NCBI GenBank assembly: GCA_018806985.1
Contig: JADANN010000377.1
Coordinates: 484,501-548,500, forward strand
Length of the DNA: 64,000 nt
From: Angiostrongylus vasorum
Lineage: Eukaryota; Nematoda; Chromadorea; Rhabditida; Metastrongylidae
Reading direction: 5' to 3'
Below, piece after piece: positions 7,824-64,000 of this stretch. The notes beneath the pieces are model-generated. The model worked only from the letters and a program-made list of their open reading frames with translations. It was not told where the DNA came from and ran no database searches. Position 1 is the stretch's first letter. Every line of letters starts with the position of its first letter. The position numbers and the translations under genes are program-made.

Positions 7824-10605
7824 GAAAAAAAAGACTTGCTCATGCAAGCAAGAAGAATAAGGTACGACGTCATCGGCTTGGCCGAGACGAGACGACGCCA
7901 CCCATTCAACGCCGTCTATGACATTGAAGAAGAAATGTTTCTCGGAACATGCGATCGTAGAGGAGTGACGGCCGCGGCGTTCTCGTCAACACGAGTTTGT
8001 CCATGAACATCGATTCATTCGAACAGCTTACAACCCGAATAGGGACGTTTACGATTAAAAAGATGTGGATCAATACCGGTTTTGACAATCTTCGTCGTTT
8101 ACGCGCCGAAATCAAACTATGACGAAGAAGAAGTCAAAGCGTTCTATATGGACTTGGAGAAGTTTTTGCAGAGAAGACCATACATCCTTCAAGGTCATCA
8201 TTGGAGATTTCAATGTCAAGATTGGACCAAGAAGAACGTCTGAAGAACGTCACGTTGGGACCCACGGATTAGAATGGAAAGAACAAGGTGAGTGACTCTC
8301 TGAGTTTATCATGACGATCAAGATTATGATCCATGGCAACTCACAATTCTAGAAACTCCACCCTCAGTGCTGGACGTGGGACTCTCGGAAGGGCGAGTTG
8401 CATAACGAAATAGACCACATCACAGTAAACCGAAAGTTTTGCCCAACCGATGTTGCTGTGGTCAAAAAATTCTACACGAGATCGTGTCATCGCGTTCTTC
8501 GTGCAAGATTCCATTCCTCGCAGAAAGGAGAAAAAGCTGCTAAACTTAAAAAAAAGAAGTCGCAAAACCACTATAAACAGGGACTTATTCAACTCATTAG
8601 TTGGTTGTTAGGGAGGATGCCGTTGTCGACAACATCGACGAGGAATACGATCGACTCATTCAACATCTTCACGTTAGCGCTATGAAAGCTGAGACTTCGA
8701 AAGTCACCAAGAGACGTCTGTCTCCAGAAAAACTCGAATCGAAGCTGGTGTGGAATCGCACGAGCTGCCGCAAAACCGCGAACTAACGTCCGAACTAGCA
8801 AAACAGTGCAGACAGGCGACAAAAGAAGATCTTAAAGAGAGAAGAGCATCAGTAATGGTCGAAGCTGCAGAAGCCCGGAAAAGCATTCGCAAAGCCTACC
8901 GAAGCTACGCCAATAGAACCTAGATGATTGCACTAGGACGCGTAGACGGAACAGTTACAGCATCCAGAAAGGCAACGGAGGAAATCATTCACGAATACTA
9001 CTCAGATCTCTGTGATAGCCACATCCACCCTCAGTCATATGAAAGAAAAGAGAATGGATATGTTGCACCACCGATTCTCCCTTTCGAAATCCAACATGTC
9101 ATTTTGTCAGTGAAAAATCGAAGAGCACCAGGTTCGGAAAGGATAAGGCCAGAACACCTGAAGAACCTTCCGCCAGTTGTCGTGAACACACTTGCTCGGC
9201 TCTTCAAACGTTACCTGTCTGAATGCAAGGTCCCTACCCAGTGGAAGACCAGCAGGACCGTGTTATTGTTCAAGAATAGTGACCTACACGATATCGGCAA
9301 CTATCGCCCAGTCTGCTTGCTGTGTGTCGTCTACAAACTTTTCACTCGACTCATCCTAAACAGGATTGACAGAAAACTGGACGAAGGGCAGTCATGTGGG
9401 CAAGCAGGATTTCGAAAAGGATTTAGTACGATGGACCACATCCACACGGTGACAAGACTCATTGAAGTGTCGATCTCGATTTAGAGAAAGCCTTTGACTC
9501 AACTGAGGTAGAAGCAGACATGAATACTCTGGACACTCAGCGAGTCCCTACCCAATATATACAGGTTCTTCGTTAGCTGTATAAAAATTTCACAAACAAG
9601 ATACCACCATTCTACAACGTTATTAACATCTACGACAAAAAAGGGTTTAAGCAAGACTATATCATCTCGTCAAAAGTGTTTAGTGCCACCCCCGAGAACG
9701 TCATGCGAACGTTGGAATGGGACAACATGGGAGTGAAAAATTGATGGTCGACAACTACATCATCTTCGATTTGCTGGTGACATCGTCCTTATAATAACAC
9801 CAAACATTAGCCAAGCGAATCGAATGCTTGCCGATTTTGATAAAGCCTGTGGAAAGATTGGTCATCGACTAAATCTCACAAAAATGACGTTCATGAGGAA
9901 CGAATTTGTTTCGTATGCCCTATTCACACTCAACGGAACGAATATCTCCGAAGGCTTCCGCCACTTCTGTATAGATGAGGAAATCAACATATGAATGAAC
10001 GACTTAGCTTCAAAGTTGTGCAGAAGGAAACGAGCGGCTTGGCGAGCTTTCAAGAACATCGAAGACGTAGTGAGGGGAATGAAGAACACCCAACTCTGTG
10101 TCAACCGTTTCGACTCAACAGTATTTCCTGCCTTAACGTATCCTTCAAAAAACTGGTCGCTTCTTAAGCAATACGAATGACCACTCAGCGTCATCGAACG
10201 TGCATTCGAAAGGAAGATGCCAGGAGTCTCCCGTGTTGCACAAGTCACGGAAGAAATCCGAAACTCCCACCGGCGTCAACGATCAAAAATCAACGATTCC
10301 GTTCTGTACGCCAATCATTCGAAGATAAGGTAGGTCGGACACGTAATGCGTATTGACAACCGATGGACAAGAGCCGTTAGTGAGTGGATTTCTCGAGATG
10401 TCAAACGCACTGTGGGAAGACTACCGAACCGATGGTTAGAGTTCTTCATGAAAAGCCTAGAAGAAAGGTACGATACTCAAAGAATCCCTGAGTGAGCAGA
10501 ACCCACTGGGCTACTCTTGCACACAGCAGGGAAAAATGGAAGTTTTAGTGGCGCCCTCTCGAGTCACTTGGCGATCAACGGGGTACGGGTGATACAGGTG
10601 ATACT
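7823..10605 (+). mobile_element. RTE-clade non-LTR retrotransposon copy 1, inactive
   Basis: Contains an AP-type endonuclease followed by a reverse transcriptase, the layout of RTE elements. The endonuclease shows [19 protein letters not shown] (about 7887-7945) and [11 protein letters not shown] (about 8195-8235), with frame changes between. The element ends in a short tandem tail of GGTGATACA type near 10590-10605, as RTE elements do. The 5' end joins PLE fragment E and the 3' end joins an antisense PLE N-terminal fragment. Confidence 0.85.
8924..10500 (+). pseudogene. RTE-1 reverse transcriptase, frame-shifted and mutated
   Basis: The open stretch 8924-9484 holds ILPFEIQHVILSVKNRRAPG, IGNYRPVCLL and QAGFRKGFSTMDHI, standard RT motifs of the RTE clade. 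A frame change near 9470 turns the expected DLDLEKAFD (motif A) into a stop at 9482. The catalytic box near 9765-9792 reads RFAGDIVL where an active element has FADD, so one catalytic Asp is Gly. Later fragments (9995-10180) continue the C-terminal part. No function is expected. Confidence 0.85.
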
Positions 10606-19967: not shown

Positions 19968-20260
19968 TAGTCCATGCGGTGCATGTAGCACAGTGGTTGG
20001 AGGTGCCACTGCGACATACACATGGAATCGATCCCCTCGCCCATGGCCCACCAAGCCTTCCATCCCTCCGGGTTCGGCGGATTGGTACCAGACTTGTCTA
20101 GAAGGATAGCAGCACTGGTTCGATACATCGGTAGGCCACCGCGCGTCATTGTAAAGGCCAGATATGAATTCAATCACCTCCAACGATGCTTAATGAAGTC
20201 GAATGCATGGCGCATCCCTCAGGGGATTGATCAACGCGGGAGAGCTTTATCCTTCGCCCT
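19968..20260 (+). mobile_element. SINE family A copy 4
   Basis: Head TAGCACAGTGGTTGG (A box) and TGGAATCGATCCCC (B box), then the family body and tail ending GGGATTGATCAACGC. The target-site duplication is unclear. Confidence 0.7.
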
Positions 20261-20657
20261 TTTTATACCCCATTACTGCATCGTCGTATTATTTTGGATC
20301 AGACCGTCATGCGTAGTGATGATGGCTCAGCTGAACGTCGAGTTCCGGCAATTAAAATTTATCGTCGTGGCAATATTGAGACTACCCTGTGATGAAAATG
20401 TTCTAGAACATTCTCTAAATACGAAATAGGTTATAAAAAAAATTGCAGACAGCTGGTGCCTAGCGCTCGGTTGTACAGAAAGTGGCACTTTTTTACACTC
20501 GTTTCACTGTCCTTCAGCTGCTAATCATGGTGACAGTGGAACTTACAAACTCATAAATCTCTAAATTTCATTGCTAACTTTGAATGTCGATGCTTCTCAC
20601 GCCACTAATCTAATACTTTGCCTATCCGACACTGTTATTCCACGATTTATTCACAAC

Positions 20658-34694: not shown

Positions 34695-34980
34695 CAGGGG
34701 CGCGTGTGGCGCAGTGGTCGGAGACGCCCTGCAACACACGTGGACTCGATCTCCGCTCCCATGGCCCACCAAGCCTTCCATCTCTCCGGGGTTGGCAAAT
34801 TGGTACCAGACTTGTCTAGCAGGATAGCAGCACTGGCTCATTACATCGTTAAGCCACCGCGAGTCATTGCAAGGGCCAGATATGCATTCACTCACCTCCA
34901 AACGATGCCTAATGAAATAGAATGCATGGCGCATCCCTCAAGTATTGATCAACTCCTAGAGCTTTATCGTTTATTATTTC
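34695..34980 (+). mobile_element. SINE family A copy 5, reference copy with target-site duplication
   Basis: The head GCGTGTGGCGCAGTGG holds a perfect pol III A box (TGGCGCAGTGG). The B box region follows about 40 bases later (GGACTCGATCTCC). The body holds TTGGTACCAGACTTGTCTAG and the tail GCATCCCTCAAGTATTGATC. Flanks ATATGGCAAA (34685-34694) and ATATGCCAAA (34981-34990) form a near-perfect duplication. A tRNA-derived SINE moved by another element's RT; RTE is a candidate partner, by inference only. Confidence 0.75.
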
Positions 34981-34990
34981 ATATGCCAAA

Positions 34991-35770
34991 TCGAGGTGGC
35001 AGAGACAGCGAGTCCATTTCCTGGATCCACATGTGTCTCAGGGAAACATACGGTCTCTTTTGGTCTGCAATTAACTCTCTATCCGCCACCTGGAGACGCG
35101 CCACGTGGCCTCGCGACTAACCGGCTCGAGGTCCCTGGATTGTGTTATAATAAGATTTATTCGATGCGAGGGATTTTGGATTAATTGCAAAACCTTTGGG
35201 CGATATATGTTTGCAACGAAGAAATGACATGGAAAAAATGTTGATGAAATACCATCTAGTATTCAACTACCAGTAAATTTCTGACAAGAGGAGAGTACAG
35301 CATTATCAAAAGTTGTCACTCGTTGATAGATTTGTCGTCCAAGCAAATTATATTATATTTGTGAATCACTAAATGTATTTGTCGACCGAACGTCTCCCGT
35401 GCAGTATTTTGCAAACGACACTTCCAAATGTGGTATCAAATTTTTTTGATTCTGAAAGATGGTCTACCAATCCATTGCGTGTTCAATTCATTCACTGAGA
35501 GGCATGTACTTCATTGAACTTCACTGTACCTGACAGCAATGATTTATGTTAGTAACTATGTGGAAAGGCTTGATCAACATACCACGTCTCTATTCTACTA
35601 GCTGGCTCTCCAGGACCACCATATCTGTAAGGCTTTTAAGAAAAAACTGCTTTTTTGTGGAAAATTTGGAACAGTTCCCAGGATTAAATTTCTCAACACT
35701 GAATTATAAATGTGTCGTTTTCTTGTTCAGTAATTGGGAGGTTGTTATATAGCATACATTTAATTCTATA
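34991..35770. other. No recognised gene
   Basis: AT-rich DNA leading into PLE-C. Near 35693-35742 it resembles the arm of the foldback element at 45891-45934. Confidence 0.35.
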
Positions 35771-52186: not shown

Positions 52187-53177
52187 AAGGGTATGATAGG
52201 CAATTTACTTACGGCAAAGTGCAGCTCGAAGCATCGAAGCAGTTCCATCACTAAACCAAGTAACAAGAATATCCTCGTTCATTTCCTCTGCTCCTGTCGT
52301 TCACACATAAAGAGGGCGCTTGCAAGAAACGTTTCGAACAGCCACCTCTGTGTGCACGAAGAGGGAACTAAAAGAGGAATCTCCAATGGCTACGAAAGAG
52401 TTACCGCACGAGATAAGTTTAAAAAGAGAGCGAGTGGCCAAGGCAAAACGCCGTTTGTGTTGCCCGTCATCGGCGATGAAGTAAGTGTAGCTATAAAACG
52501 ATGCTTAAGAAAGGTGCTCTAGAGGAATCGGTAGCGATAGTTGAAATACCACCTGATTCCCCTTCGTTGTCAATTAGTTCGTAACCGCCTGTATGACCGT
52601 CTATGAGAAACACAAAGTTGAGCAATTTGCCCTCACGGCAGGCACGGTGGATGCATAAGTCCAAGTACGATATACCTGATCTCTTGTAGTACTTGCGAAG
52701 ACGAATATATTGGCGGAACGGGAAGTCCTTTAAGTATCCGTATAAAAGAACACCTAGATGGCAAACGAAAATCAAAACAAGGCACGCCACTAGGCACGCA
52801 TAGGGATACAAAAACATAGCGGAGACAATTTCGATGTTAAAGTCGCTATCCTCGCACAGGATGCCAAAACACCAACGCGCAAACTTCCAGAAGCTTTTTG
52901 GACAAGTACCAGGAGCCCCAGAACGAACAGCATTGAGGAATGCCCGGAGATCACACGTCATCAGGCCCCGTACCTTCGCATCGACTTTTGAAGCGGGGTG
53001 GTGCATTTATCGACCATACGCGACTCTGACCAGCTGTTCTTCCTTAGTAGAAGGCACGTAATAAACGGTGGGTTTTTTCGGGAAGTTGTTGGTGATGTGA
53101 CTACGATTTACATTTTCATCATTCTGTATGTGTTGTTGGAGCGTTCCACTTAGTAAATTGGCTATCAATATACGCTT

Positions 53178-53216
53178 CCAGGCTATGAAAAAGGCGAATA
53201 CCACGGAAACGCCAGC
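53178..53216 (+). ncRNA. Hammerhead-like motif H17, degenerate
   Basis: CCAGGCT and GAAACGCCAGC are kept; the first core box reads ATGAAAA. Confidence 0.35.
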
Positions 53217-53269
53217 TTTAACTGAATGAAGAGTGCAGTAACACCTCGTGTTTTTCCCGACAGGAATAT

Positions 53270-53590
53270 CGAGAACTATTTGATCAATGCCGAGGTTAAC
53301 AGAAAGTTGGTCGTGGGAATTTCTGGGACACTGTTCAGTCACCAGTGTGAAGTAAACTGTGTTGTTGCACAGATACACACTATACGGGCAATCAAATACA
53401 CCACTTTGCGGATTGAGACAATCCACACAACCTAATCGCATTTCATTAACATTCCTCAGAGTATTGCCGTCGGATCACCACTGTATTGTATACGAGCGAT
53501 AAGGAGATCGTTGATGAGTTCCTGATGGAAATGACAAGCCCTGTCCGCAGGTTGAAGAGCGTTTTAATAGGCGGGACTAATACGATTCAA
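53270..53590. other. Unique DNA left of the tRNA array
   Basis: No repeat of the array unit and no recognised gene. The array starts abruptly at about 53592. Confidence 0.5.
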
Positions 53591-53591
53591 C

Positions 53592-53673
53592 GACGAGATG
53601 GCTGAGGGGTCCAAGGCGCTTGTTTTAGGCAACAGTCCCTTCGGGAGCGTGGGTTCGAATCCCACTTTCGTCA
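53592..53673 (+). pseudogene. tRNA-Leu relic, unit 1 (array edge)
   Basis: Anticodon loop TTTAGGC is kept, but two anticodon-stem pairs are lost (CTTGT/AACAG) and the A box reads TGGCTGAGGGG. The acceptor stem starts GACGAGA. Spacer strongly diverged. Confidence 0.75.
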
Positions 53674-53774
53674 CGCGTTTCATGCGTTTGGCTAGCGATT
53701 AGCTACCCTCAACTGTATGCGAACCAGTGCTGGACATGTCATCTCTTTTGCAGAAGAGACTAAGACCATTCTAC

Positions 53775-53857
53775 GGCGAGATGGCCCGGCGGTCCAAGGC
53801 GCTGGTTTTAGGCAGCAGTCCCTTCGGGGGGCGTGGGTTCGAGTCCCCCTCTCGTCA
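53775..53857 (+). pseudogene. tRNA-Leu relic, unit 2
   Basis: TAG loop. The A box is damaged (TGGCCCGGCGG), one anticodon-stem mismatch (AGCAG), T-arm CCCCC instead of CCCAC. Confidence 0.7.
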
Positions 53858-53979
53858 ACTGTTTTTGCCGACGATTGCTAGGGTACACTGTATGTGAACC
53901 ACTACGGGAAACGTTATCTTCAAACATTTCTGCACGGCTTTAAAGCGTGCTTTTGCATGAGAGACTAACACCGTTGTAA

Positions 53980-54062
53980 GGCGAGATGGCCGAGCGGTCC
54001 AAGGCGCTGGTTTTAGGCACCAGTCCCTTCGGGGGGCGTGCGTTCGAATCCCACTCTCGTCA
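53980..54062 (+). tRNA. tRNA-Leu(TAG), unit 3
   Basis: Cloverleaf intact except the first B box base (CGTTCGAATCC), which breaks one T-arm pair. Trailer AGTGTTTT. Confidence 0.75.
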
Positions 54063-54180
54063 AGTGTTTTGCCGACGATTGCTAGGGTACACTGTATGTG
54101 AACCACTACGGGAGAGTTGATCTTCAAACATTTCTCCACGGCTTTAAGCGTGCTTTGCATGAGAGACTACACCGTTGTAA

Positions 54181-54261
54181 GGCGAGATGGCCGAGGGGTC
54201 CAACTCGCTGCACCTAGTTACCACTTCCTTCGGGGTTTGTGTTCGAATTCCACGCTTGTCA
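54181..54261 (+). pseudogene. tRNA-Leu decayed variant, unit 4
   Basis: First of five V-type copies: CCAACTCGCTGCACCTAG replaces the anticodon stem, and the T arm (GTGTTCGAATTCC) has mismatches. Acceptor end GCTTGTCA. Confidence 0.8.
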
Positions 54262-54380
54262 CGTGTTTTGCCGATGACTGCCTGGGTACACTGTACTGTG
54301 AACCACTACAGGAGACGTCATCTTCAAACATTTCTGCACGGCTTTAAGCGTTCCTTTATAGTAGAATAACACCATTGTAA

Positions 54381-54463
54381 GGCGAGATGGCCGAGCGGTC
54401 CAAGGCGCTGGTTTTAGGCACCAGTCCCCTTCGGGGGCGTGGGTTCGAATCCCACTCTCGTCA
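54381..54463 (+). tRNA. tRNA-Leu(TAG), unit 5
   Basis: Intact; variable arm CCCCTTCGGGGG. The upstream spacer has TTTATAG about 25 bases before the gene. Confidence 0.93.
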
Positions 54464-54583
54464 AGTGTTTTGCCGACGATTGCTACGGGTACACTGTATG
54501 TGAACCACTGCAGGAAACGTCATCTTCAAACATTTCTGCACGGCTTTAAGCGTGCTTTGCATGAGAGACTAACACCATTGTAA

Positions 54584-54665
54584 GGCGAGATGGCCGAGGG
54601 GTCCAAGGCGCTGGTTTTAGGCACCAGTCCCTTCGGGGGCGTGGGTTCGAATCCCACTCTCGTCA
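54584..54665 (+). tRNA. tRNA-Leu(TAG), unit 6
   Basis: Intact; D-loop form GAGGGGTCC (C to G), still an A box match. Confidence 0.92.
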
Positions 54666-54784
54666 CGTGTTTTGCCGATGACTGCCTGGGTACACTGTAT
54701 GTGAACCACTGCAGGAAACGTCATCTTCAAACATTTCTGCACGGCTTTAAGCGTGCTTTGCATGAGAGACTAACACCATTGTAA

Positions 54785-54868
54785 GGCGAGATGGCCGAGC
54801 GGGTCCAAGGCGCTGGTTTTAGGCACCAGTCCCCTTCGGGGGCGTGGGTTCGAATCCCACTCTCGTCA
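54785..54868 (+). tRNA. tRNA-Leu(TAG), unit 7
   Basis: Intact arms; one extra G in the D loop (GAGCGGGTCC). Confidence 0.9.
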
Positions 54869-54988
54869 CGTGTTTTGCCGATGACTGCCTGGGTACACTG
54901 TATGTGAACCACTGCAGGAAACGTCATCTTCAAACATTTCTGCACGGCTTTAAGCGTGCCTTTGCATGAGAGACTAACACCGTTGTAA

Positions 54989-55071
54989 GGCGAGATGGCC
55001 GAGCGGGTCCAAGGCGCTGGTTTTAGGCACCAGTCCCTTCGGGGGCGTGGGTTCGAATCCCACTCTCGTCA
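54989..55071 (+). tRNA. tRNA-Leu(TAG), unit 8
   Basis: Extra D-loop G as in unit 7; otherwise intact. Confidence 0.9.
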
Positions 55072-55191
55072 CGTGTTTTGCCGACGATTGCTAGGGTACA
55101 CTGTATGTGAACCACTACGGGAAACGTCATCTTCAAACATTTCTGCACGGCTTTAAGCGTGCTTTGCATGAGTAGACTAACACCATTGTAA

Positions 55192-55273
55192 GGCGAGATG
55201 GCCGAGGGGTCCAAGGCGCTGGTTTTAGGCACCAGTCCCTTCGGGGGCGTGGGTTCGAATCCCACTCTCGTCA
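55192..55273 (+). tRNA. tRNA-Leu(TAG), unit 9
   Basis: GAGGGG D-loop form; trailer AGTGTTTT. Confidence 0.92.
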
Positions 55274-55395
55274 AGTGTTTTGCCGACGATTGCTACGGGT
55301 ACACTGTATGTGAACCACTGCAGGGAAACGTCATCTTCGAAACATTTCTGCACGGCTTTAAGCGTGCTTTGCATGAGAGACTAACACCATTGTAA

Positions 55396-55478
55396 GGCGA
55401 GATGGCCGAGGGGTCCAAGGCGCTGGTTTTAGGCACCAGTCCCTTCGGGGGGCGTGGGTTCGAATCCCACTCTCGTCA
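55396..55478 (+). tRNA. tRNA-Leu(TAG), unit 10
   Basis: GAGGGG D-loop form; variable arm with six Gs; trailer AGTGTTTT. Confidence 0.92.
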
Positions 55479-55597
55479 AGTGTTTTGCCGACGATTGCTA
55501 GGGTACACTGTATGTGAACCACTACGGGAGACGTCATCTTCAAACATTTCTGCACGGCTTTAAGCGTGCTTTGTATGAGACACTAACACCATTGTAA

Positions 55598-55679
55598 GGC
55601 GAGATGGCCGAGCGGTCCAAGGCGCTGGTTTTAGGCACCAGTCCCTTCGGGGGCGTGGGTTCGAATCCCACTCTCGTCA
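55598..55679 (+). tRNA. tRNA-Leu(TAG), unit 11
   Basis: Consensus copy with five Gs in the variable arm. Confidence 0.95.
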
Positions 55680-55797
55680 CGTGTTTTGCCGACGATTGCT
55701 AGGGTACACTGTATGTGAACCACTACGGGAGAGTTCCTCTTCAAACATTTCTGCACGGCTTTAAGCGTTCCTTTATAGTAAAATAACACCATTGTAA

Positions 55798-55880
55798 GGC
55801 GAGATGGCCGAGGGGTCCAAGGCGCTGGTTTTAGGCACCAGTCCCTACGGGGGGCGTGCATTCGAATCCCACTCTCCTCA
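55798..55880 (+). pseudogene. tRNA-Leu relic, unit 12
   Basis: TAG loop intact, but acceptor 3' strand TCTCCTC (one mismatch), B box CATTCGAATCC and variable arm CCTACGG. Upstream TTTATAG form. Confidence 0.65.
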
Positions 55881-56000
55881 AGTGTTTTGCCGACGATTGC
55901 TAGGGTACACTGTATGTGAACCACTACAGGGAAACGTCATCTTCAAACATTTCTGCACGGCTTTAAGCGTGCTTTGCATGAGAGACTAACACCATTGTAA

Positions 56001-56082
56001 GGCGAGATGGCCGAGGGGTCCAAGGCGCTGGTTTTAGGCACCAGTCCCTTCGGGGGCGTGGGTTCGAATCCCACTCTCGTCA
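56001..56082 (+). tRNA. tRNA-Leu(TAG), unit 13
   Basis: GAGGGG D-loop form; otherwise consensus. Confidence 0.92.
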
Positions 56083-56201
56083 CGTGTTTTGCCGACGATT
56101 GCTAGGGTACACTGTATGTGAACCACTGCAGGAAACGTCATCTTCAAACATTTCTGCACGGCTTTAAGCGTGCTTTGCATGAGAGACTAACACCATTGTA
56201 A

Positions 56202-56284
56202 GGCGAGATGGCCGAGGGGTCCAACTCGCTGCACTTTAGTGACCACTTCCTTCGGGGTTTGTGTTCGAATTCCCACTCTTGTCA
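56202..56284 (+). pseudogene. tRNA-Leu decayed variant, unit 14
   Basis: V-type with GCACTTTAGTGACC where other V copies have GCACCTAGTGACC, plus one extra C in the T arm. Confidence 0.8.
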
Positions 56285-56403
56285 CGTGTTTTGCCGATGA
56301 CTGCCTGGGTACACTGTATGTGAACCACTACAGGAGACGTCATCTTCAAACATTTCTGCACGGCTTTAAGCGTGCTTTGCATGAGAGACTAACACCGTTG
56401 TAA

Positions 56404-56486
56404 GGCGAGATGGCCGAGCGGTCCAAGGCGCTGGTTTTAGGCACCAGTCCCTTCGGGGGGCGTGGGTTCGAATCCCACTCTCGTCA
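56404..56486 (+). tRNA. tRNA-Leu(TAG), unit 15
   Basis: Consensus gene; trailer CGTATTTT. Confidence 0.95.
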
Positions 56487-56559
56487 CGTATTTTGCCGAT
56501 GACTGCCTGGGTACACTGTATGTGAACCACTACAGGAGACGTCATCTTCAAACATTTCT

Positions 56560-56577
56560 GCACGGCTTTAAGCGTGC
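56560..56577. promoter_or_regulatory. Conserved upstream hairpin of the array unit (example before unit 16)
   Basis: GCACGGCTTTAAGCGTGC, an imperfect palindrome (GCAC/GTGC and GCTT/AAGC with one bulged G) at -46 to -29 from the tRNA start. It recurs in most units. Role unknown. Confidence 0.5.
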
Positions 56578-56605
56578 TTTGCATAAGAGACTAACACCGT
56601 TGTAA

Positions 56606-56688
56606 GGCGAGATGGCCGAGCGGTCCAAGGCGCTGGTTTTAGGCACCAGTCCCTTCGGGGGGCGTGGGTTCGAATCCCACTCTCGTCA
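56606..56688 (+). tRNA. tRNA-Leu(TAG), unit 16
   Basis: Consensus gene, six-G variable arm, spacer of the GACGATTG type. Confidence 0.96.
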
Positions 56689-56692
56689 CGTG

Positions 56693-56696
56693 TTTT
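56693..56696 (+). terminator. Pol III terminator (example after unit 16)
   Basis: TTTT beginning five bases after the discriminator A. The same T4 run follows essentially every unit (five Ts after unit 2). Confidence 0.8.
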
Positions 56697-56807
56697 GCCG
56701 ACGATTGCTAGGGTACACTGTATGTGAACCACTACAGGAGACGTCATCTTCAAACATTTCTGCACGGCTTTAAGCGTGCTTTGCATGAGAGACTAACACC
56801 GTTGTAA

Positions 56808-56890
56808 GGCGAGATGGCCGAGCGGTCCAAGGCGCTGGTTTTAGGCACCAGTCCCTTCGGGGGGCGTGGGTTCGAATCCCACTCTCGTCA
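56808..56890 (+). tRNA. tRNA-Leu(TAG), unit 17
   Basis: Consensus gene; spacer of the GATGACTG type. Confidence 0.96.
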
Positions 56891-57009
56891 CGTGTTTTGC
56901 CGATGACTGCCTGGGTACACTGTATGTGAACCACTGCAGGAAACGTCATCTTCAAACATTTCTGCACGGCTTTAAGCGTGCTTTGCATAAGAGACTAACA
57001 CCGTTGTAA

Positions 57010-57092
57010 GGCGAGATGGCCGAGCGGTCCAAGGCGCTGGTTTTAGGCACCAGTCCCTTCGGGGGGCGTGGGTTCGAATCCCACTCTCGTCA
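57010..57092 (+). tRNA. tRNA-Leu(TAG), unit 18
   Basis: Consensus gene; trailer AGTGTTTT. Confidence 0.96.
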
Positions 57093-57211
57093 AGTGTTTT
57101 GCCGATGACTGCCTGGGTACACTGTATGTGAACCACTACAGGAGACGTCATCTTCAAACATTTCTGCACGGCTTTAAGCGTGCTTTGCATAAGAGACTAA
57201 CACCGTTGTAA

Positions 57212-57294
57212 GGCGAGATGGCCGAGCGGTCCAAGGCGCTGGTTTTAGGCACCAGTCCCTTCGGGGGGCGTGGGTTCGAATCCCACTCTCGTCA
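57212..57294 (+). tRNA. tRNA-Leu(TAG), unit 19
   Basis: Matches unit 18 in gene and trailer, as if the pair arose by a recent duplication. Confidence 0.96.
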
Positions 57295-57413
57295 AGTGTT
57301 TTGCCGATGACTGCCTGGGTACACTGTATGTGAACCACTACAGGAGACGTCATCTTCAAACATTTCTGCACGGCTTTAAGCGTGCTTTGCATGAGAGACT
57401 AACACCGTTGTAA

Positions 57414-57496
57414 GGCGAGATGGCCGAGCGGTCCAAGGCGCTGGTTTTAGGCACCAGTCCCTTCGGGGGGCGTGGGTTCGAATCCCACTCTCGTCA
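57414..57496 (+). tRNA. tRNA-Leu(TAG), unit 20
   Basis: Consensus gene; last before the first 8-base-loop copies. Confidence 0.96.
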
Positions 57497-57615
57497 CGTG
57501 TTTTGCCGACGATTGCTAGGGTACACTGTATGTGAACCACTACAGGAGACGTCATCTTCAAACATTTCTGCACGGCTTTAAGCGTGCTTTGCATAAGAGA
57601 CTAACACCGTTGTAA

Positions 57616-57699
57616 GGCGAGATGGCCGAGCGGTCCAAGGCGCTGGTTTTAAGGCACCAGTCCCTTCGGGGGGCGTGGGTTCGAATCCCACTCTCGTCA
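57616..57699 (+). tRNA. tRNA-Leu with 8-base anticodon loop, unit 21
   Basis: Loop TTTAAGGC between CTGGT and ACCAG; one base longer than normal. All other arms intact. Confidence 0.8.
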
Positions 57700-57818
57700 C
57701 GTGTTTTGCCGACGATTGCTAGGGTACACTGTATGTGAACCACTACAGGAGACGTCATCTTCAAACATTTCTGCACGGCTTTAAGCGTGCTTTGCATAAG
57801 AGACTAACACCGTTGTAA

Positions 57819-57901
57819 GGCGAGATGGCCGAGCGGTCCAAGGCGCTGGTTTTAAGGCACCAGTCCCTTCGGGGGCGTGGGTTCGAATCCCACTCTCGTC
57901 A
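57819..57901 (+). tRNA. tRNA-Leu with 8-base anticodon loop, unit 22
   Basis: Same loop as unit 21; five-G variable arm. Confidence 0.8.
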
Positions 57902-58020
57902 CGTGTTTTGCCGACGATTGCTAGGGTACACTGTATGTGAACCACTACAGGAGACGTCATCTTCAAACATTTCTGCACGGCTTTAAGCGTGCTTTGCATG
58001 AGAGACTAACACCGTTGTAA

Positions 58021-58101
58021 GGCGAGATGGCCGAGGGGTCCAACTCGCTGCACCTAGTGACCACTTCCTTCGGGGTTTGTGTTCGAATTCCACTCTTGTC
58101 A
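58021..58101 (+). pseudogene. tRNA-Leu decayed variant, unit 23
   Basis: V-type (GCACCTAGTGACC); acceptor end TCTTGTCA. Confidence 0.8.
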
Positions 58102-58221
58102 CGTGTTTTGCCGATGACTGCCTGGGTACACTGTATGTGAACCACTGCAGGGAGACGTCATCTTCAAACATTTCTGCACGGCTTTAAGCGTGCTTTGCAT
58201 AAGAGACTAACACCGTTGTAA

Positions 58222-58303
58222 GGCGAGATGGCCGAGCGGTCCAAGGCGCTGGTTTTAGGCACCAGTCCCTTCGGGGGCGTGGGTTCGAATCCCACTCTCG
58301 TCA
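58222..58303 (+). tRNA. tRNA-Leu(TAG), unit 24
   Basis: Consensus gene; trailer AGTATTTT. Confidence 0.95.
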
Positions 58304-58422
58304 AGTATTTTGCCGATGACTGCCTGGGTACACTGTATGTGAACCACTGCAGGAAACGTCATCTTCAAACATTTCTGCACGGCTTTAAGCGTGCTTTGCA
58401 TGAGAGACTAACACCGTTGTAA

Positions 58423-58506
58423 GGCGAGATGGCCGAGCGGTCCAAGGCGCTGGTTTTAAGGCACCAGTCCCTTCGGGGGGCGTGGGTTCGAATCCCACTC
58501 TCGTCA
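58423..58506 (+). tRNA. tRNA-Leu with 8-base anticodon loop, unit 25
   Basis: Loop TTTAAGGC; six-G variable arm. Confidence 0.8.
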
Positions 58507-58625
58507 CGTGTTTTGCCGACGATTGCTAGGGTACACTGTATGTGAACCACTACAGGAAACGTCATCTTCAAACATTTCTGCACGGCTTTAAGCGTGCTTT
58601 GCATGAGAGACTAACACCATTGTAA

Positions 58626-58708
58626 GGCGAGATGGCCGAGCGGTCCAAGGCGCTGGTTTAAGGCACCAGTCCCTTCGGGGGGCGTGGGTTCGAATCCCAC
58701 TCTCGTCA
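58626..58708 (+). tRNA. tRNA-Leu(AAG), unit 26
   Basis: Normal 7-base loop TTAAGGC gives anticodon AAG, the first such copy in the array. Confidence 0.9.
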
Positions 58709-58827
58709 CGTGTTTTGCCGACGATTACTAGGGTACACTGTATGTGAACCACTACAGGAGACGTCATCTTCAAACATTTCTGCACGGCTTTAAGCGTGCT
58801 TTGTATGAGAGACTAACACCATTGTAA

Positions 58828-58910
58828 GGCGAGATGGCCGAGCGGTCCAAGGCGCTGGTTTTAGGCACCAGTCCCTTCGGGGGGCGTGGGTTCGAATCCC
58901 ACTCTCGTCA
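58828..58910 (+). tRNA. tRNA-Leu(TAG), unit 27
   Basis: Consensus gene; the spacer after it has GCGGACG for GCCGACG. Confidence 0.95.
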
Positions 58911-59031
58911 CGTGTTTTGCGGACGATTGCTAGGGTACACTGTATGTGAACCACTACAGGGAGACGTCATCTTCAAACATTTCTGCACGGCTTTAAGCGT
59001 TCCTTTATAGTAGAAACTAACACCATTGTAA

Positions 59032-59116
59032 GGCGAGATGGCCGAGCGGGTCCAAGGCGCTGGTTTTAGGCACCAGTCCCCTTCGGGGGGCGTGGGTTCG
59101 AATCCCACTCTCGTCA
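59032..59116 (+). tRNA. tRNA-Leu(TAG), unit 28
   Basis: Longest copy (85 bases): extra D-loop G and variable arm CCCCTTCGGGGGG. Upstream TTTATAG form. Confidence 0.88.
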
Positions 59117-59236
59117 AGTGTTTTGCCGACGATTGCTACGGTACACTCGTATGTGAACCACTGCAGGAAACGTCATCTTCAAACATTTCTGCACGGCTTT
59201 AAGCGTGCTTTGCATGAGAGACTAACACCATTGTAA

Positions 59237-59320
59237 GGCGAGATGGCCGAGCGGTCCAAGGCGCTGGTTTTAAGGCACCAGTCCCTTCGGGGGGCGTGGG
59301 TTCGAATCCCACTCTCGTCA
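59237..59320 (+). tRNA. tRNA-Leu with 8-base anticodon loop, unit 29
   Basis: Loop TTTAAGGC; arms intact. Confidence 0.8.
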
Positions 59321-59441
59321 CGTGTTTTGCCGACGATTGCCTAGGGGTACACTGTATGTGAACCACTACAGGAGACGTCATCTTCAAACATTTCTGCACG
59401 GCTTTAAGCGTGCTTTGCATGAGAGACTAACACCGTTGTAA

Positions 59442-59524
59442 GGCGAGATGGCCGAGCGGTCCAAGGCGCTGGTTTTAAGGCACCAGTCCCTTCGGGGGCG
59501 TGGGTTCGAATCCCACTCTCGTCA
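59442..59524 (+). tRNA. tRNA-Leu with 8-base anticodon loop, unit 30
   Basis: Loop TTTAAGGC; five-G variable arm. Confidence 0.8.
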
Positions 59525-59643
59525 CGTGTTTTGCCGACGATTGCTAGGGTACACTGTATGTGAACCACTACAGGAGACGTCATCTTCAAACATTTCTGCA
59601 CGGCTTTAAGCGTGCTTTGCATGAGAGACTAACACCGTTGTAA

Positions 59644-59726
59644 GGCGAGATGGCCGAGCGGTCCAAGGCGCTGGTTTTAAGGCACCAGTCCCTTCGGGGG
59701 CGTGGGTTCGAATCCCACTCTCGTCA
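59644..59726 (+). tRNA. tRNA-Leu with 8-base anticodon loop, unit 31
   Basis: Same gene as unit 30, but followed by a hybrid spacer (GATGACTGCCTAGGG). Confidence 0.8.
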
Positions 59727-59846
59727 CGTGTTTTGCCGATGACTGCCTAGGGTACACTGTATGTGAACCACTACAGGAGACGTCATCTTCAAACATTTCT
59801 GCACGGCTTTAAGCGTGCTTTGCATGAGAGACTAACACCGTTGTAA

Positions 59847-59928
59847 GGCGAGATGGCCGAGCGGTCCAAGGCGCTGGTTTAAGGCACCAGTCCCTTCGGG
59901 GGCGTGGGTTCGAATCCCACTCTCGTCA
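59847..59928 (+). tRNA. tRNA-Leu(AAG), unit 32
   Basis: Loop TTAAGGC; five-G variable arm; hybrid spacer GACGACTGCCTAGGG. Confidence 0.9.
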
Positions 59929-60048
59929 CGTGTTTTGCCGACGACTGCCTAGGGTACACTGTATGTGAACCACTGCAGGAAACGTCATCTTCAAACATTT
60001 CTGCACGGCTTTAAGCGTGCTTTGCATGAGAGACTAACACCGTTGTAA

Positions 60049-60130
60049 GGCGAGATGGCCGAGCGGTCCAAGGCGCTGGTTTTAGGCACCAGTCCCTTCG
60101 GGGGCGTGGGTTCGAATCCCACTCTCGTCA
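60049..60130 (+). tRNA. tRNA-Leu(TAG), unit 33
   Basis: Consensus gene; trailer AGTGTTTT. Confidence 0.95.
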
Positions 60131-60249
60131 AGTGTTTTGCCGATGACTGCCTGGGTACACTGTATGTGAACCACTACAGGAGACGTCATCTTCAAACATT
60201 TCTGCACGGCTTTAAGCGTGCTTTGCATAAGAGACTAACACCGTTGTAA

Positions 60250-60332
60250 GGCGAGATGGCCGAGCGGTCCAAGGCGCTGGTTTTAGGCACCAGTCCCTTC
60301 GGGGGGCGTGGGTTCGAATCCCACTCTCGTCA
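60250..60332 (+). tRNA. tRNA-Leu(TAG), unit 34
   Basis: Consensus gene; trailer AGTGTTTT; hybrid spacer. Confidence 0.95.
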
Positions 60333-60452
60333 AGTGTTTTGCCGACGACTGCCTAGGGTACACTGTATGTGAACCACTGCAGGAAACGTCATCTTCAAAC
60401 ATTTCTGCACGGCTTTAAGCGTGCTTTGCATAAGAGACTAACACCGTTGTAA

Positions 60453-60534
60453 GGCGAGATGGCCGAGCGGTCCAAGGCGCTGGTTTTAGGCACCAGTCCC
60501 TTCGGGGGCGTGGGTTCGAATCCCACTCTCGTCA
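60453..60534 (+). tRNA. tRNA-Leu(TAG), unit 35
   Basis: Consensus gene; GACGATTG spacer. Confidence 0.95.
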
Positions 60535-60654
60535 CGTGTTTTGCCGACGATTGCTAGGGTACACTGTATGTGAACCACTACAGGAGACGTCATCTTCAAA
60601 CATTTCTGCACGGCTTTTAAGCGTGCTTTGCATAAGAGACTAACACCGTTGTAA

Positions 60655-60738
60655 GGCGAGATGGCCGAGCGGTCCAAGGCGCTGGTTTTAAGGCACCAGT
60701 CCCTTCGGGGGGCGTGGGTTCGAATCCCACTCTCGTCA
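60655..60738 (+). tRNA. tRNA-Leu with 8-base anticodon loop, unit 36
   Basis: Loop TTTAAGGC; the upstream hairpin has one extra T. Confidence 0.8.
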
Positions 60739-60858
60739 CGTGTTTTGCCGACGATTGCCTAGGGTACACTGTATGTGAACCACTACAGGAGACGTCATCT
60801 TCAAACATTTCTGCACGGCTTTAAGCGTGCTTTGCATAAGAGACTAACACCGTTGTAA

Positions 60859-60940
60859 GGCGAGATGGCCGAGCGGTCCAAGGCGCTGGTTTTAGGCACC
60901 AGTCCCTTCGGGGGCGTGGGTTCGAATCCCACTCTCGTCA
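60859..60940 (+). tRNA. tRNA-Leu(TAG), unit 37
   Basis: Consensus gene. Confidence 0.95.
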
Positions 60941-61059
60941 CGTGTTTTGCCGACGATTGCTAGGGTACACTGTATGTGAACCACTACAGGAGACGTCATC
61001 TTCAAACATTTCTGCACGGCTTTAAGCGTGCTTTGCATAAGAGACTAACACCGTTGTAA

Positions 61060-61141
61060 GGCGAGATGGCCGAGGGGTCCAACTCGCTGCACCTAGTGAC
61101 CACTTCCTTCGGGGTTTGTGTTCGAATTCCACTCTTCGTCA
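61060..61141 (+). pseudogene. tRNA-Leu decayed variant, unit 38
   Basis: V-type with end CTCTTCGTCA, one base longer than units 23 and 46. Confidence 0.8.
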
Positions 61142-61260
61142 CGTGTTTTGCCGATGACTGCCTGGGTACACTGTATGTGAACCACTACAGGAGACGTCAT
61201 CTTCAAACATTTCTGCACGGCTTTAAGCGTGCTTTGCATAAGAGACTAACACCGTTGTAA

Positions 61261-61343
61261 GGCGAGATGGCCGAGCGGTCCAAGGCGCTGGTTTTAGGCA
61301 CCAGTCCCTTCGGGGGGCGTGGGTTCGAATCCCACTCTCGTCA
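61261..61343 (+). tRNA. tRNA-Leu(TAG), unit 39
   Basis: Consensus gene; trailer AGTGTTTT. Confidence 0.95.
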
Positions 61344-61462
61344 AGTGTTTTGCCGATGACTGCCTGGGTACACTGTATGTGAACCACTGCAGGAAACGTC
61401 ATCTTCAAACATTTCTGCACGGCTTTAAGCGTGCTTTGCATGAGAGACTAACACCGTTGTAA

Positions 61463-61544
61463 GGCGAGATGGCCGAGCGGTCCAAGGCGCTGGTTTAAGG
61501 CACCAGTCCCTTCGGGGGCGTGGGTTCGAATCCCACTCTCGTCA
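61463..61544 (+). tRNA. tRNA-Leu(AAG), unit 40
   Basis: Loop TTAAGGC; arms intact. Confidence 0.9.
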
Positions 61545-61663
61545 CGTGTTTTGCCGACGATTGCTAGGGTACACTGTATGTGAACCACTACAGGAGACGT
61601 CATCTTCAAACATTTCTGCACGGCTTTAAGCGTGCTTTGCATAGTAGACTAACACCATTGTAA

Positions 61664-61745
61664 GGCGAGATGGCCGAGCGGTCCAAGGCGCTGGTTTTAG
61701 GCACCAGTCCCTTCGGGGTTTGTGTTCGAATTCCACTCTTCGTCA
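61664..61745 (+). pseudogene. tRNA-Leu chimera, unit 41
   Basis: The 5' half is an ordinary TAG gene with intact anticodon arm. From CTTCGGGG onward it is V-type (TTTGTGTTCGAATTCC, CTCTTCGTCA), as in unit 38. The T arm is mismatched, so function is doubtful. Confidence 0.8.
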
Positions 61746-61864
61746 CGTGTTTTGCCGATGACTGCCTGGGTACACTGTATGTGAACCACTACAGGAGACG
61801 TCATCTTCAAACATTTCTGCACGGCTTTAAGCGTGCTTTGCATGAGAGACTAACACCGTTGTAA

Positions 61865-61946
61865 GGCGAGATGGCCGAGCGGTCCAAGGCGCTGGTTTTA
61901 GGCACCAGTCCCTTCGGGGGCGTGGGTTCGAATCCCACTCTCGTCA
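61865..61946 (+). tRNA. tRNA-Leu(TAG), unit 42
   Basis: Consensus gene; hybrid spacer GACGATTGCCTAGGG. Confidence 0.95.
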
Positions 61947-62066
61947 CGTGTTTTGCCGACGATTGCCTAGGGTACACTGTATGTGAACCACTACAGGAGA
62001 CGTCATCTTCAAACATTTCTCCACGGCTTTAAGCGTGCTTTGCATGAGAGACTAACACCATTGTAA

Positions 62067-62150
62067 GGCGAGATGGCCGAGCGGGTCCAAGGCGCTGGTT
62101 TTAGGCACCAGTCCCTTCGGGGGCTGTGGGTTCGAATCCCACTCTCGTCA
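62067..62150 (+). tRNA. tRNA-Leu(TAG), unit 43
   Basis: Extra D-loop G and an inserted T before the T arm (GGGGGCTGTGGG). Confidence 0.85.
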
Positions 62151-62269
62151 CGTGTTTTGCCGACGATTGCTAGGGTACACTGTATGTGAACCACTACAGG
62201 AAACGTCATCTTCAAACATTTCTGCACGGCTTTAAGCGTGCTTTGCATGAGAGACTAACACCATTGTAA

Positions 62270-62352
62270 GGCGAGATGGCCGAGCGGTCCAAGGCACTGG
62301 TTTAAGGCACCAGTCCCTTCGGGGGGCGTGGGTTCGAATCCCACTCTCGTCA
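62270..62352 (+). tRNA. tRNA-Leu(AAG), unit 44
   Basis: Loop TTAAGGC; G to A just before the anticodon stem (GGCACTGG). Confidence 0.88.
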
Positions 62353-62472
62353 CGTGTTTTGCCGACGATTGCTAGGGTACACTGTATGTGAACCACTACA
62401 GGGAGACGTCATCTTCAAACATTTCTGCACGGCTTTAAGCGTGCTTTGCATGAGAGACTAACACCATTGTAA

Positions 62473-62555
62473 GGCGAGATGGCCGAGCGGTCCAAGGCGC
62501 TGGTTTAAGGCACCAGTCCCTTCGGGGGGCGTGGGTTCGAATCCCACTCTCGTCA
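62473..62555 (+). tRNA. tRNA-Leu(AAG), unit 45
   Basis: Loop TTAAGGC; second of two adjacent AAG copies. Confidence 0.9.
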
Positions 62556-62674
62556 CGTGTTTTGCCGACGATTGCTAGGGTACACTGTATGTGAACCACT
62601 ACAGGAAACGTCATCTTCAAACATTTCTGCACGGCTTTAAGCGTGCTTTGCATGAGAGACTAACACCGTTGTAA

Positions 62675-62755
62675 GGCGAGATGGCCGAGGGGTCCAACTC
62701 GCTGCACCTAGTGACCACTTCCTTCGGGGTTTGTGTTCGAATTCCACTCTTGTCA
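62675..62755 (+). pseudogene. tRNA-Leu decayed variant, unit 46
   Basis: V-type, like unit 23 (GCACCTAGTGACC, CTCTTGTCA). Confidence 0.8.
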
Positions 62756-62873
62756 CGTGTTTTGCCGATGACTGCCTGGGTACACTGTATGTGAACCACT
62801 GCAGGAGACGTCATCTTCAAACATTTCTGCACGGCTTAAGCGTGCTTTGCATGAGAGACTAACACCGTTGTAA

Positions 62874-62956
62874 GGCGAGATGGCCGAGCGGTCCAAGGCG
62901 CTGGTTTTAAGGCACCAGTCCCTTCGGGGGCGTGGGTTCGAATCCCACTCTCGTCA
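62874..62956 (+). tRNA. tRNA-Leu with 8-base anticodon loop, unit 47
   Basis: Loop TTTAAGGC; the upstream hairpin lacks one T. Confidence 0.8.
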
Positions 62957-63076
62957 CGTGTTTTGCCGACGATTGCCTAGGGTACACTGTATGTGAACCA
63001 CTGCAGGAAACGTCATCTTCAAACATTTCTGCACGGCTTTAAGCGTGCTTTGCATGAGAGACTAACACCGTTGTAA

Positions 63077-63160
63077 GGCGAGATGGCCGAGCGGTCCAAG
63101 GCGCTGGTTTTAAGGCACCAGTCCCTTCGGGGGGCGTGGGTTCGAATCCCACTCTCGTCA
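63077..63160 (+). tRNA. tRNA-Leu with 8-base anticodon loop, unit 48
   Basis: Loop TTTAAGGC; six-G variable arm. Confidence 0.8.
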
Positions 63161-63279
63161 CGTGTTTTGCCGACGATTGCTAGGGTACACTGTATGTGAA
63201 CCACTACAGGAGACGTCATCTTCAAACATTTCTGCACGGCTTTAAGCGTGCTTTGCATGAAAGACTAACACCGTTGTAA

Positions 63280-63361
63280 GGCGAGATGGCCGAGCGGTCC
63301 AAGGCGCTGGTTTAAGGCACCAGTCCCTTCGGGGGCGTGGGTTCGAATCCCACTCTCGTCA
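63280..63361 (+). tRNA. tRNA-Leu(AAG), unit 49
   Basis: Loop TTAAGGC; hybrid spacer GATGACTGCTAGGG. Confidence 0.9.
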
Positions 63362-63480
63362 CGTGTTTTGCCGATGACTGCTAGGGTACACTGTATGTGA
63401 ACCACTACAGGAGACGTCATCTTCAAACATTTCTGCACGGCTTTAAGCGTGCTTTGCATGAGAGACTAACACCGTTGTAA

Positions 63481-63562
63481 GGCGAGATGGCCGAGCGGTC
63501 CAAGGCGCTGGTTTTAGGCACCAGTCCCTTCGGGGGCGTGGGTTCGAATCCCACTCTCGTCA
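63481..63562 (+). tRNA. tRNA-Leu(TAG), unit 50
   Basis: Consensus gene. Confidence 0.95.
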
Positions 63563-63681
63563 CGTGTTTTGCCGACGATTGCTAGGGTACACTGTATGTG
63601 AACCACTGCAGGAGACGTCATCTTCAAACATTTCTGCACGGCTTTAAGCGTGCTTTGCATGAGAGACTAACACCGTTGTAA

Positions 63682-63763
63682 GGCGAGATGGCCGAGCGGT
63701 CCAAGGCGCTGGTTTTAGGCACCAGTCCCTTCGGGGGCGTGGGTTCGAATCCCACTCTCGTCA
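63682..63763 (+). tRNA. tRNA-Leu(TAG), unit 51
   Basis: Consensus gene; hybrid spacer GATGATTGCCTAGGGG. Confidence 0.95.
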
Positions 63764-63885
63764 CGTGTTTTGCCGATGATTGCCTAGGGGTACACTGTAT
63801 GTGAACCACTACAGGAGACGTCATCTTCAAACATTTCTGCACGGCTTTTAAGCGTGCTTTGCATAAGAGACTAACACCGTTGTAA

Positions 63886-63968
63886 GGCGAGATGGCCGAG
63901 CGGTCCAAGGCGCTGGTTTTAGGCACCAGTCCCTTCGGGGGGCGTGGGTTCGAATCCCACTCTCGTCA
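63886..63968 (+). tRNA. tRNA-Leu(TAG), unit 52
   Basis: Consensus gene; its spacer is cut by the window edge. Confidence 0.95.
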
Positions 63969-64000
63969 CGTGTTTTGCCGATGACTGCCTAGGGGTACAC

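Follow-up and report, generated by a model that had tools for sequence, protein, structure and literature searches.

Among tandem repeats of transfer RNA (tRNA) genes, the 3.18-kb tDNA repeat of Xenopus and the Ser-Tyr-Tyr clusters of Arabidopsis hold mixed types and occupy few loci. Genome-wide tandem tRNA arrays have so far come mainly from the amoeba Entamoeba, and what is known elsewhere is single loci or mixed clusters. The Entamoeba arrays are long and homogenised, there are several in each genome, nearly all of its tRNA genes lie within them, and concerted evolution has been proposed for them (Tawari et al., PMC2652664). Among animals, the variable-number tandem repeat (VNTR) at human 1q23.3 has 9-43 units of 7.3 kb at one locus, with several tRNA types, and in it the tRNA is conserved but not the remainder of the unit (Darrow and Chadwick, PMC4041453). 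In Nematostella and teleosts, tRNA genes form clusters of at least fifty, mostly parallel; the available text of that study treats Caenorhabditis for synteny, not for arrays (Bermudez-Santana et al., PMC2888827). Here we describe a stretch of 64,000 nucleotides of the nematode Angiostrongylus vasorum (C377:484501-548500, hereafter the window; C377 is its contig, in an assembly of 279.9 Mb and 468 contigs) that ends in a tandem array of tRNA-Leu-type genes with a period of about 202 bp.

The array, whose left part lies in the window, is one of twelve, pieces included, that we found for tRNA genes in this genome. We consider it probable that it has expanded, and that its units have stayed similar, through unequal exchange and gene conversion over short tracts, much as in ribosomal DNA (rDNA). 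We favor this reading because the units fall into linked subtypes, like neighbors are clustered, one unit is chimeric, the edges are decayed, a second array combines a near-identical tRNA body with an unrelated spacer, and other tRNA classes form arrays as well.

The leucine array and its counterpart on another contig

An earlier note, made from the letters of the window alone, had claimed 52 units in one orientation at near-constant spacing. This is confirmed: 52 unit starts lie between 53592 and 63886, all on the forward strand and 199-205 bp apart, except for a first interval of 183 bp. Tandem Repeats Finder (TRF) reports a single 202-bp array at 53747-64000 (50.7 copies, match 94%) and no other period within it, so that there are no short tandem repeats between its genes. 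The note's further statement that most units carry a cloverleaf, A and B boxes and a T4 terminator holds as well. ARAGORN called a tRNA in 47 of the 52 units, and Rfam RF00005 matched 46; a strict B box was found in 43 and a strict A box in 40 (50 if C or G is allowed at one site). A T4 run no more than 16 nt from the tRNA 3' end was present at all 47 window ends that matched a fixed end motif, and at 77/77 such ends across C377. The "52 tRNA-Leu genes" of the note are fewer on inspection: canonical tRNA-Leu features (cloverleaf, long variable arm, A73) are present, and a standard leucine anticodon is found in only 38 units (UAG in 32, AAG in 6). Nine copies have an 8-nt anticodon loop and are labeled tRNA-??? 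by ARAGORN, and five are dead, being exactly those without an ARAGORN call. The left edge unit scores 41.2 bits in Rfam, as against 59.7 for the best units. Spacers after the first are about 119 bp each, TTTT terminator included.

Table. Positions of features of the leucine arrays and of the arginine array on the same contig (window coordinates unless a contig is named)
Feature	Position	Strand	Details
Tandem tRNA-Leu-type array, ~202-bp units, n=52 in window	53592..64000	+	ARAGORN, TRF, Rfam, alignment
Left edge unit, diverged	53592..53774	+	Anticodon-stem mismatches; next unit after 183 bp; alignment
First inter-gene spacer, diverged	53675..53774	+	
Intact tRNA-Leu(UAG), example	55598..55680	+	A box TGGCCGAGCGG, B box GGTTCGAATCC, long variable arm, A73, 3' TTTT; Rfam 59.7 bits
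tRNA-Leu(AAG)	58626..58709; further starts 59847, 61463, 62270, 62473, 63280	+	ARAGORN
8-nt anticodon-loop copy	57616..57700	+	ARAGORN; Rfam 52.6-52.8 bits for this type
Further 8-nt-loop copies	starts 57819, 58423, 59237, 59442, 59644, 60655, 62874, 63077	+	
Dead subtype unit	54181..54380	+	Anticodon arm and B box altered; no ARAGORN or Rfam call
Further dead units	starts 56202, 58021, 61060, 62675	+	
Chimeric unit	61664..61864	+	5' half UAG-type, 3' half dead-type; ARAGORN call, no Rfam call
Second leucine array	C447:384.7-401.1 kb		81 unit anchors, most at intervals of 203-211 bp
Arg(UCU) array, opposite end of the window's contig	C377:1-9900		31 genes in 9.9 kb

As the note had also stated, the array extends beyond the window. 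It totals 84 unit starts, of which 32 lie past the window, the final one being a 23-base stub, and C377 stops at 554,869, still inside the array. The right end of contig C125 (minus strand) begins at a unit boundary, holds three decayed units without any ARAGORN call and then passes into unit-free sequence. A 29-nt spacer motif, searched genome-wide with up to 3 mismatches, had all of its 78 matches on C377 and C125, and no copy elsewhere in the window. We infer that the C125 end is probably the far edge of the C377 array; decay at both edges is as expected of exchange between units. With the spacer-motif matches confined in this way, and the copies thus not dispersed, a tRNA-derived short interspersed element was ruled out. 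So was a nematode nev-tRNA, which combines a variable arm with a glycine or isoleucine anticodon (PMC4300185), the anticodons here being UAG and AAG. One scan each of viral contigs and of prokaryote genome contigs with an array motif gave no match.

The second leucine array, on C447, has non-array sequence on both flanks and a 100-N gap close to its right end. All of its 66 ARAGORN calls are AAG, and its matched tRNA 3' ends (n=78) carry four T in 59 cases, three in 17 and five in 2. The consensus tRNA bodies of the two arrays are identical except for the anticodon base and one G of the variable arm; the spacers do not align at all. The exact AAG arm has 66 matches in the genome, every one within the two leucine arrays, and the exact UAG arm has 43, of which 42 are on C377 and one is a solitary intact gene on C467. 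Within C447:384700-401400 we also noted a recurrent unit type whose 5' acceptor arm is broken (4/7 acceptor pairs), with the exact head at 14 of the 81 anchors, and, just beyond the right edge of the array, an inverted tRNA-Leu piece at 401364.

In the living units of C377 (70 of 82 aligned units, 11 dead ones and the chimera being omitted) diversity was 3.7 times lower in the tRNA body (0.0121) than in the spacer (0.0444; circular-shift P 0.03). The C447 values were 0.041 and 0.102 (74 units, edge and gap-side units omitted), the body region counted there including some columns of leading spacer as well as units of the broken-acceptor kind. Along C377, 42 adjacent pairs shared a loop type where 27.9 +/- 3.6 would be expected (P 1e-4). 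Of the spacer substitution sites tested, the five at positions 83-104 were each linked to loop type (P 0.0005 or less) and the four at 128-195 were not (P 0.11 to 0.78). The linkage disappears between 70 and 93 bp, and such decay inside one 200-bp unit is a sign of short-tract exchange. Identical units form six pairs in C377, and in four of these the partners are not adjacent; identity between C447 units peaks at lag 4 (0.927, mean 0.907). The chimeric unit, to judge from its two halves, is a visible trace of exchange between units. Unequal exchange together with short-tract conversion would lead to concerted evolution; copy number would drift well above need, dead and 8-nt-loop copies would persist without being selected, and expression is predicted for some of the units only.

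Arrays of other tRNA classes and the rest of the window

The earlier note had described a single array of leucine isoacceptors. That account is right but incomplete, the array being one of twelve arrays or pieces, of several tRNA classes, found here. We searched the genome for exact matches to six further motifs, picked from common tRNA motifs rather than at random, and assigned array identities from sampled stretches of 0.8 to 9.9 kb. Every one of the six probes led to at least one array; the total of twelve includes the leucine arrays. Besides the main leucine arrays, the arrayed classes are Leu(UAA), Arg(UCU), Arg(UCG), Lys(UUU), Gly(GCC), Glu(UUC), initiator Met and a decayed Tyr, with solitary copies alongside.

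The Arg motif had 216 matches; among the 100 matches listed, 25 are on C339 (Arg(UCU) where sampled), 69 on C374 (Arg(UCG) where sampled), one on C377 and five are singles. A 92-bp sub-repeat is present in the Arg arrays, and in the one on C377 a higher-order period of 760 bp was seen along with it. The GCTCAGTYGGKAGAGC motif had 272 matches (its reversed control, 1), and the 100 matches listed comprise 30 on C360, 69 on C389 and a single on C32, the only GTCGG-form match among them. The C360 array was identified as Lys(UUU) from positions 1-2500, where 172-bp repeats yielded 4 tRNA calls over the 2.5 kb; full tRNA-Lys(UUU) units are interspersed there with truncated ones. The C389 array is Tyr-like and decayed, its 3' half being lost, and only one of about 8 sampled units was called. 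Its 203-bp units (C389:1569001-1571600) contain an intron-like insert and are 97% alike despite being mostly dead; this array is a natural control for neutral homogenisation.

Of the 60 matches to GCCGAGYGGTTAAGGCG, 58 are on C448, which is Leu(UAA) where sampled, and two are singles, namely a Leu(UAA) gene on C439 and a decayed Ser-like stretch on C442. No Ser array was found with this motif, which was intended for Ser too. At C442:556800-557300 several decayed tRNA-Ser-like copies are clustered, without an ARAGORN call. The Gly motif gave 79 matches (59 on C86, 20 singles), and at the sampled edge of the C86 array lie Gly(GCC) and one copy that was called Asn with a low score. For the Glu motif there were 226 matches; the 100 listed fall on C330 (20) and C457 (73), which are Glu(UUC) where sampled, and at single sites (7). 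The initiator-Met arm had 60 matches, 58 of them about 250 bp apart on C466 and two single. By motif, the share of matches lying inside arrays is 66/66 for Leu(AAG), 42/43 for Leu(UAG), 58/60 for initiator Met and 59/79 for Gly. The basic TRF periods range from about 157 to 486 bp. The distance from an array to the contig end is about 150 bp or less on C377 (both ends), C360, C374, C457 and C125, and gaps of N were seen within or beside the arrays on C447 (100 N), C448 (100 N) and C466 (at least 48 N). Because several arrays abut contig ends or gaps in this way, their assembled sizes are likely lower bounds. The telomere repeat TTAGGC, at three or more consecutive copies, was absent from the 73 sequences examined. 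AcanR3990, a diagnostic repeat of A. cantonensis, was dropped as a name for the arrays after a look by eye at its printed primers, with no search for it (PMC10174499).

In the remainder of the window, the minus-strand sequence adjoining the array (52491-53441) is one reading frame with a single stop; it has a sub-threshold ShK match (E 0.008), and its upstream half (open reading frame (ORF) 53010-53441, minus) had no homologue at E 0.001. Broken retroelement pieces lie at 1214-2609 and 8924-9484, and the proteins searched from them (1214-1855 and 8924-9481) have their best matches in Angiostrongylus, at 76-77%. The ORFs 20022-20429 and 34704-35120 have sequence in common (MAHQAFH...) and are likely copies of a dispersed repeat.

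Weighing the explanations

The copies with an 8-nt loop bear on how the leucine array has changed. Their loop, TTTTAAGG, is intermediate in sequence between TTTTAGG (UAG) and TTTAAGG (AAG). It differs from the AAG loop by one T in a run of T, and other runs of T, G and C also vary in length between units, so that a sequencing error of the AAG loop has to be considered. We think this improbable, since the 8-nt loop occurs in 16 of 69 strict C377 arms but in none of 55 on C447, and since its copies adjoin each other (6 adjacent pairs against 2.9 expected, P 0.03) and carry the linked spacer alleles of AAG: an A at spacer site 83 is found in 0/16 8-nt-loop, 0/12 AAG and 19/43 UAG copies. Because it is absent from the strict C447 arms, clustered, and linked to alleles common with AAG, we regard the loop as a real variant, and we take it to be a putative intermediate of an anticodon switch in either direction. 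UAG would become AAG through a gain of one A followed by a loss of one T, or the reverse would have happened.

Several observations weigh against growth and homogenisation by exchange between functional units. If the 11 dead units of C377 are included, the body is more diverse (0.055) than the spacer (0.045) because the dead type differs chiefly in the body; the contrast appears only after these units are dropped, and constraint is therefore argued for living units only. Even then, its P of 0.03 is modest. The dead type alone is not clustered along C377 (P 0.40), an insertion at spacer 103/104 is unlinked to loop type (P 0.40), and the similarity of adjacent C447 units (0.890 at lag 1) does not exceed the mean (0.907). 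Homopolymer-length differences between units point to some consensus error. Further points of this kind make up the case for the main rival, that the arrays are selfish or neutral satellites which merely contain tRNA sequence while solitary genes do the work: dead and 8-nt-loop units make up 27 of the 82 aligned on C377, most units of the sampled Lys array lack a tRNA, the Tyr-like array is decayed, the broken-acceptor head recurs on C447, and solitary intact Leu(UAG), Leu(UAA), initiator-Met and Gly genes are available. Against this stand the conservation of body over spacer in both leucine arrays, C377 dead units set aside, and the exact Leu(AAG) arm, of which there is no solitary copy. We regard the satellite explanation as less likely, though it is the strongest competitor.

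The available main text of a nematode codon-usage study (PMC1779591) mentions neither CUA nor CUU nor leucine. We also asked how the arrays compare with codon use in actin exons, trimmed to 1,124 codons from six loci of one gene family, close paralogues included (20 loci were given, 8 were compared and 6 yielded pieces; pieces below 88% identity or with a stop were removed). Leucine codons (n=95) were CTT 40, CTC 21, TTG 16, CTG 9, TTA 5 and CTA 4, and arginine codons (n=54) were CGT 29, CGC 10, CGA 6, AGG 6, AGA 3 and CGG 0. By anticodon reading, the arrayed UAG, UAA, UCU and UCG tRNAs would decode rare codons, and AAG would decode CUU and CUC through inosine. If selection had favored more copies of tRNAs for frequent codons, as in the codon-demand role that the earlier note had suggested, the all-AAG array on C447 would fit, CUU and CUC being the commonest leucine codons of actin. 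UAG, however, dominates the C377 array though CTA is the rarest leucine codon, Leu(UAA) is arrayed while TTA is scarce, and Arg(UCU) and Arg(UCG) are arrayed while AGA and CGA fall far behind CGT. Only the AAG array agrees with codon demand, which is disfavored by this small test and to which we assign a low probability. Since the arrayed tRNAs mostly match rare actin codons, expansion beyond need is favored. The selfish tandem expansion that the note had also offered survives in part: a tandem expansion beyond need would fit the sequences best, with the tRNA bodies of living units showing signs of constraint.

Two further explanations have less in their favor. An array selected as an RNA polymerase III/TFIIIC chromatin domain or replication-pause domain would be in keeping with the barrier action of tRNA genes in other systems (PMC4041453) and with the A box retained by dead copies, but the B box of those copies is damaged (TGTTCGAATTC), and we give the idea little credence. 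That the assembler inflated a locus of one or a few units is suggested by the end of C377 inside its array, by the N gaps at three arrays and by the homopolymer noise. The units are, however, distinguished by linked substitutions, the C447 array is anchored on both sides, the same pattern recurs on many contigs, and the annotation of a related lungworm, Parelaphostrongylus tenuis, counts 9,623 tRNA genes, tabulated without comment in the available text (PMC10940269). An assembly artefact is therefore very improbable.

Significance and comparison with known systems

Taken together, the arrays may mean, tentatively, that most nuclear tRNA genes of this nematode have been rebuilt as dozens of rDNA-like, isoacceptor-specific arrays convergent with those of Entamoeba, with copy number freed from codon demand and, within one array, a leucine isoacceptor being converted into another through 8-nt-loop intermediates that are potential frameshifting tRNAs. 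A nematode with many large tRNA arrays would be an animal system for asking why tRNA genes turn rDNA-like, how cells cope with many tRNA genes in excess and by what route isoacceptors change anticodon. The arrays would account for contig breaks in this assembly, and tRNA gene number may here be a poor proxy for codon demand. Other nematodes are given far fewer tRNA genes than P. tenuis, namely 659 for C. elegans and 233, 254 and 467 for three more species (PMC3715494), which suggests that arrays are perhaps a wider feature of these lungworms. The word "tRNA" is absent from the main text, as available, of the A. cantonensis genome paper (PMC6871775); the GC content of that assembly, 41.7%, falls within the range of the window outside the array. 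The earlier note had said that such an array would be unusual for a nematode. Among the papers listed by full-text searches, in which few subscription journals are covered, none was seen to describe nuclear tandem tRNA arrays in this group.

The closest likeness is to Entamoeba (PMC2652664). Head-to-tail homogenised units with 1-5 tRNA genes, a trait of that type, are found here as well, although the Tyr array and most sampled Lys units are decayed. In contrast to Entamoeba, the host is an animal, each leucine unit holds one tRNA gene, and solitary genes persist. The short tandem repeats between genes, which the available text ascribes to E. histolytica and E. dispar only, are lacking in the leucine spacers here. 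The human VNTR is likewise an animal tandem array with a conserved tRNA (PMC4041453), but the nematode arrays have far shorter periods, mostly one isoacceptor group per array, and many loci. The clusters of Nematostella and teleosts are likewise large and mostly parallel; those of Nematostella and zebrafish are, however, mostly heterogeneous pairs (PMC2888827), whereas the nematode arrays repeat at a fixed period.

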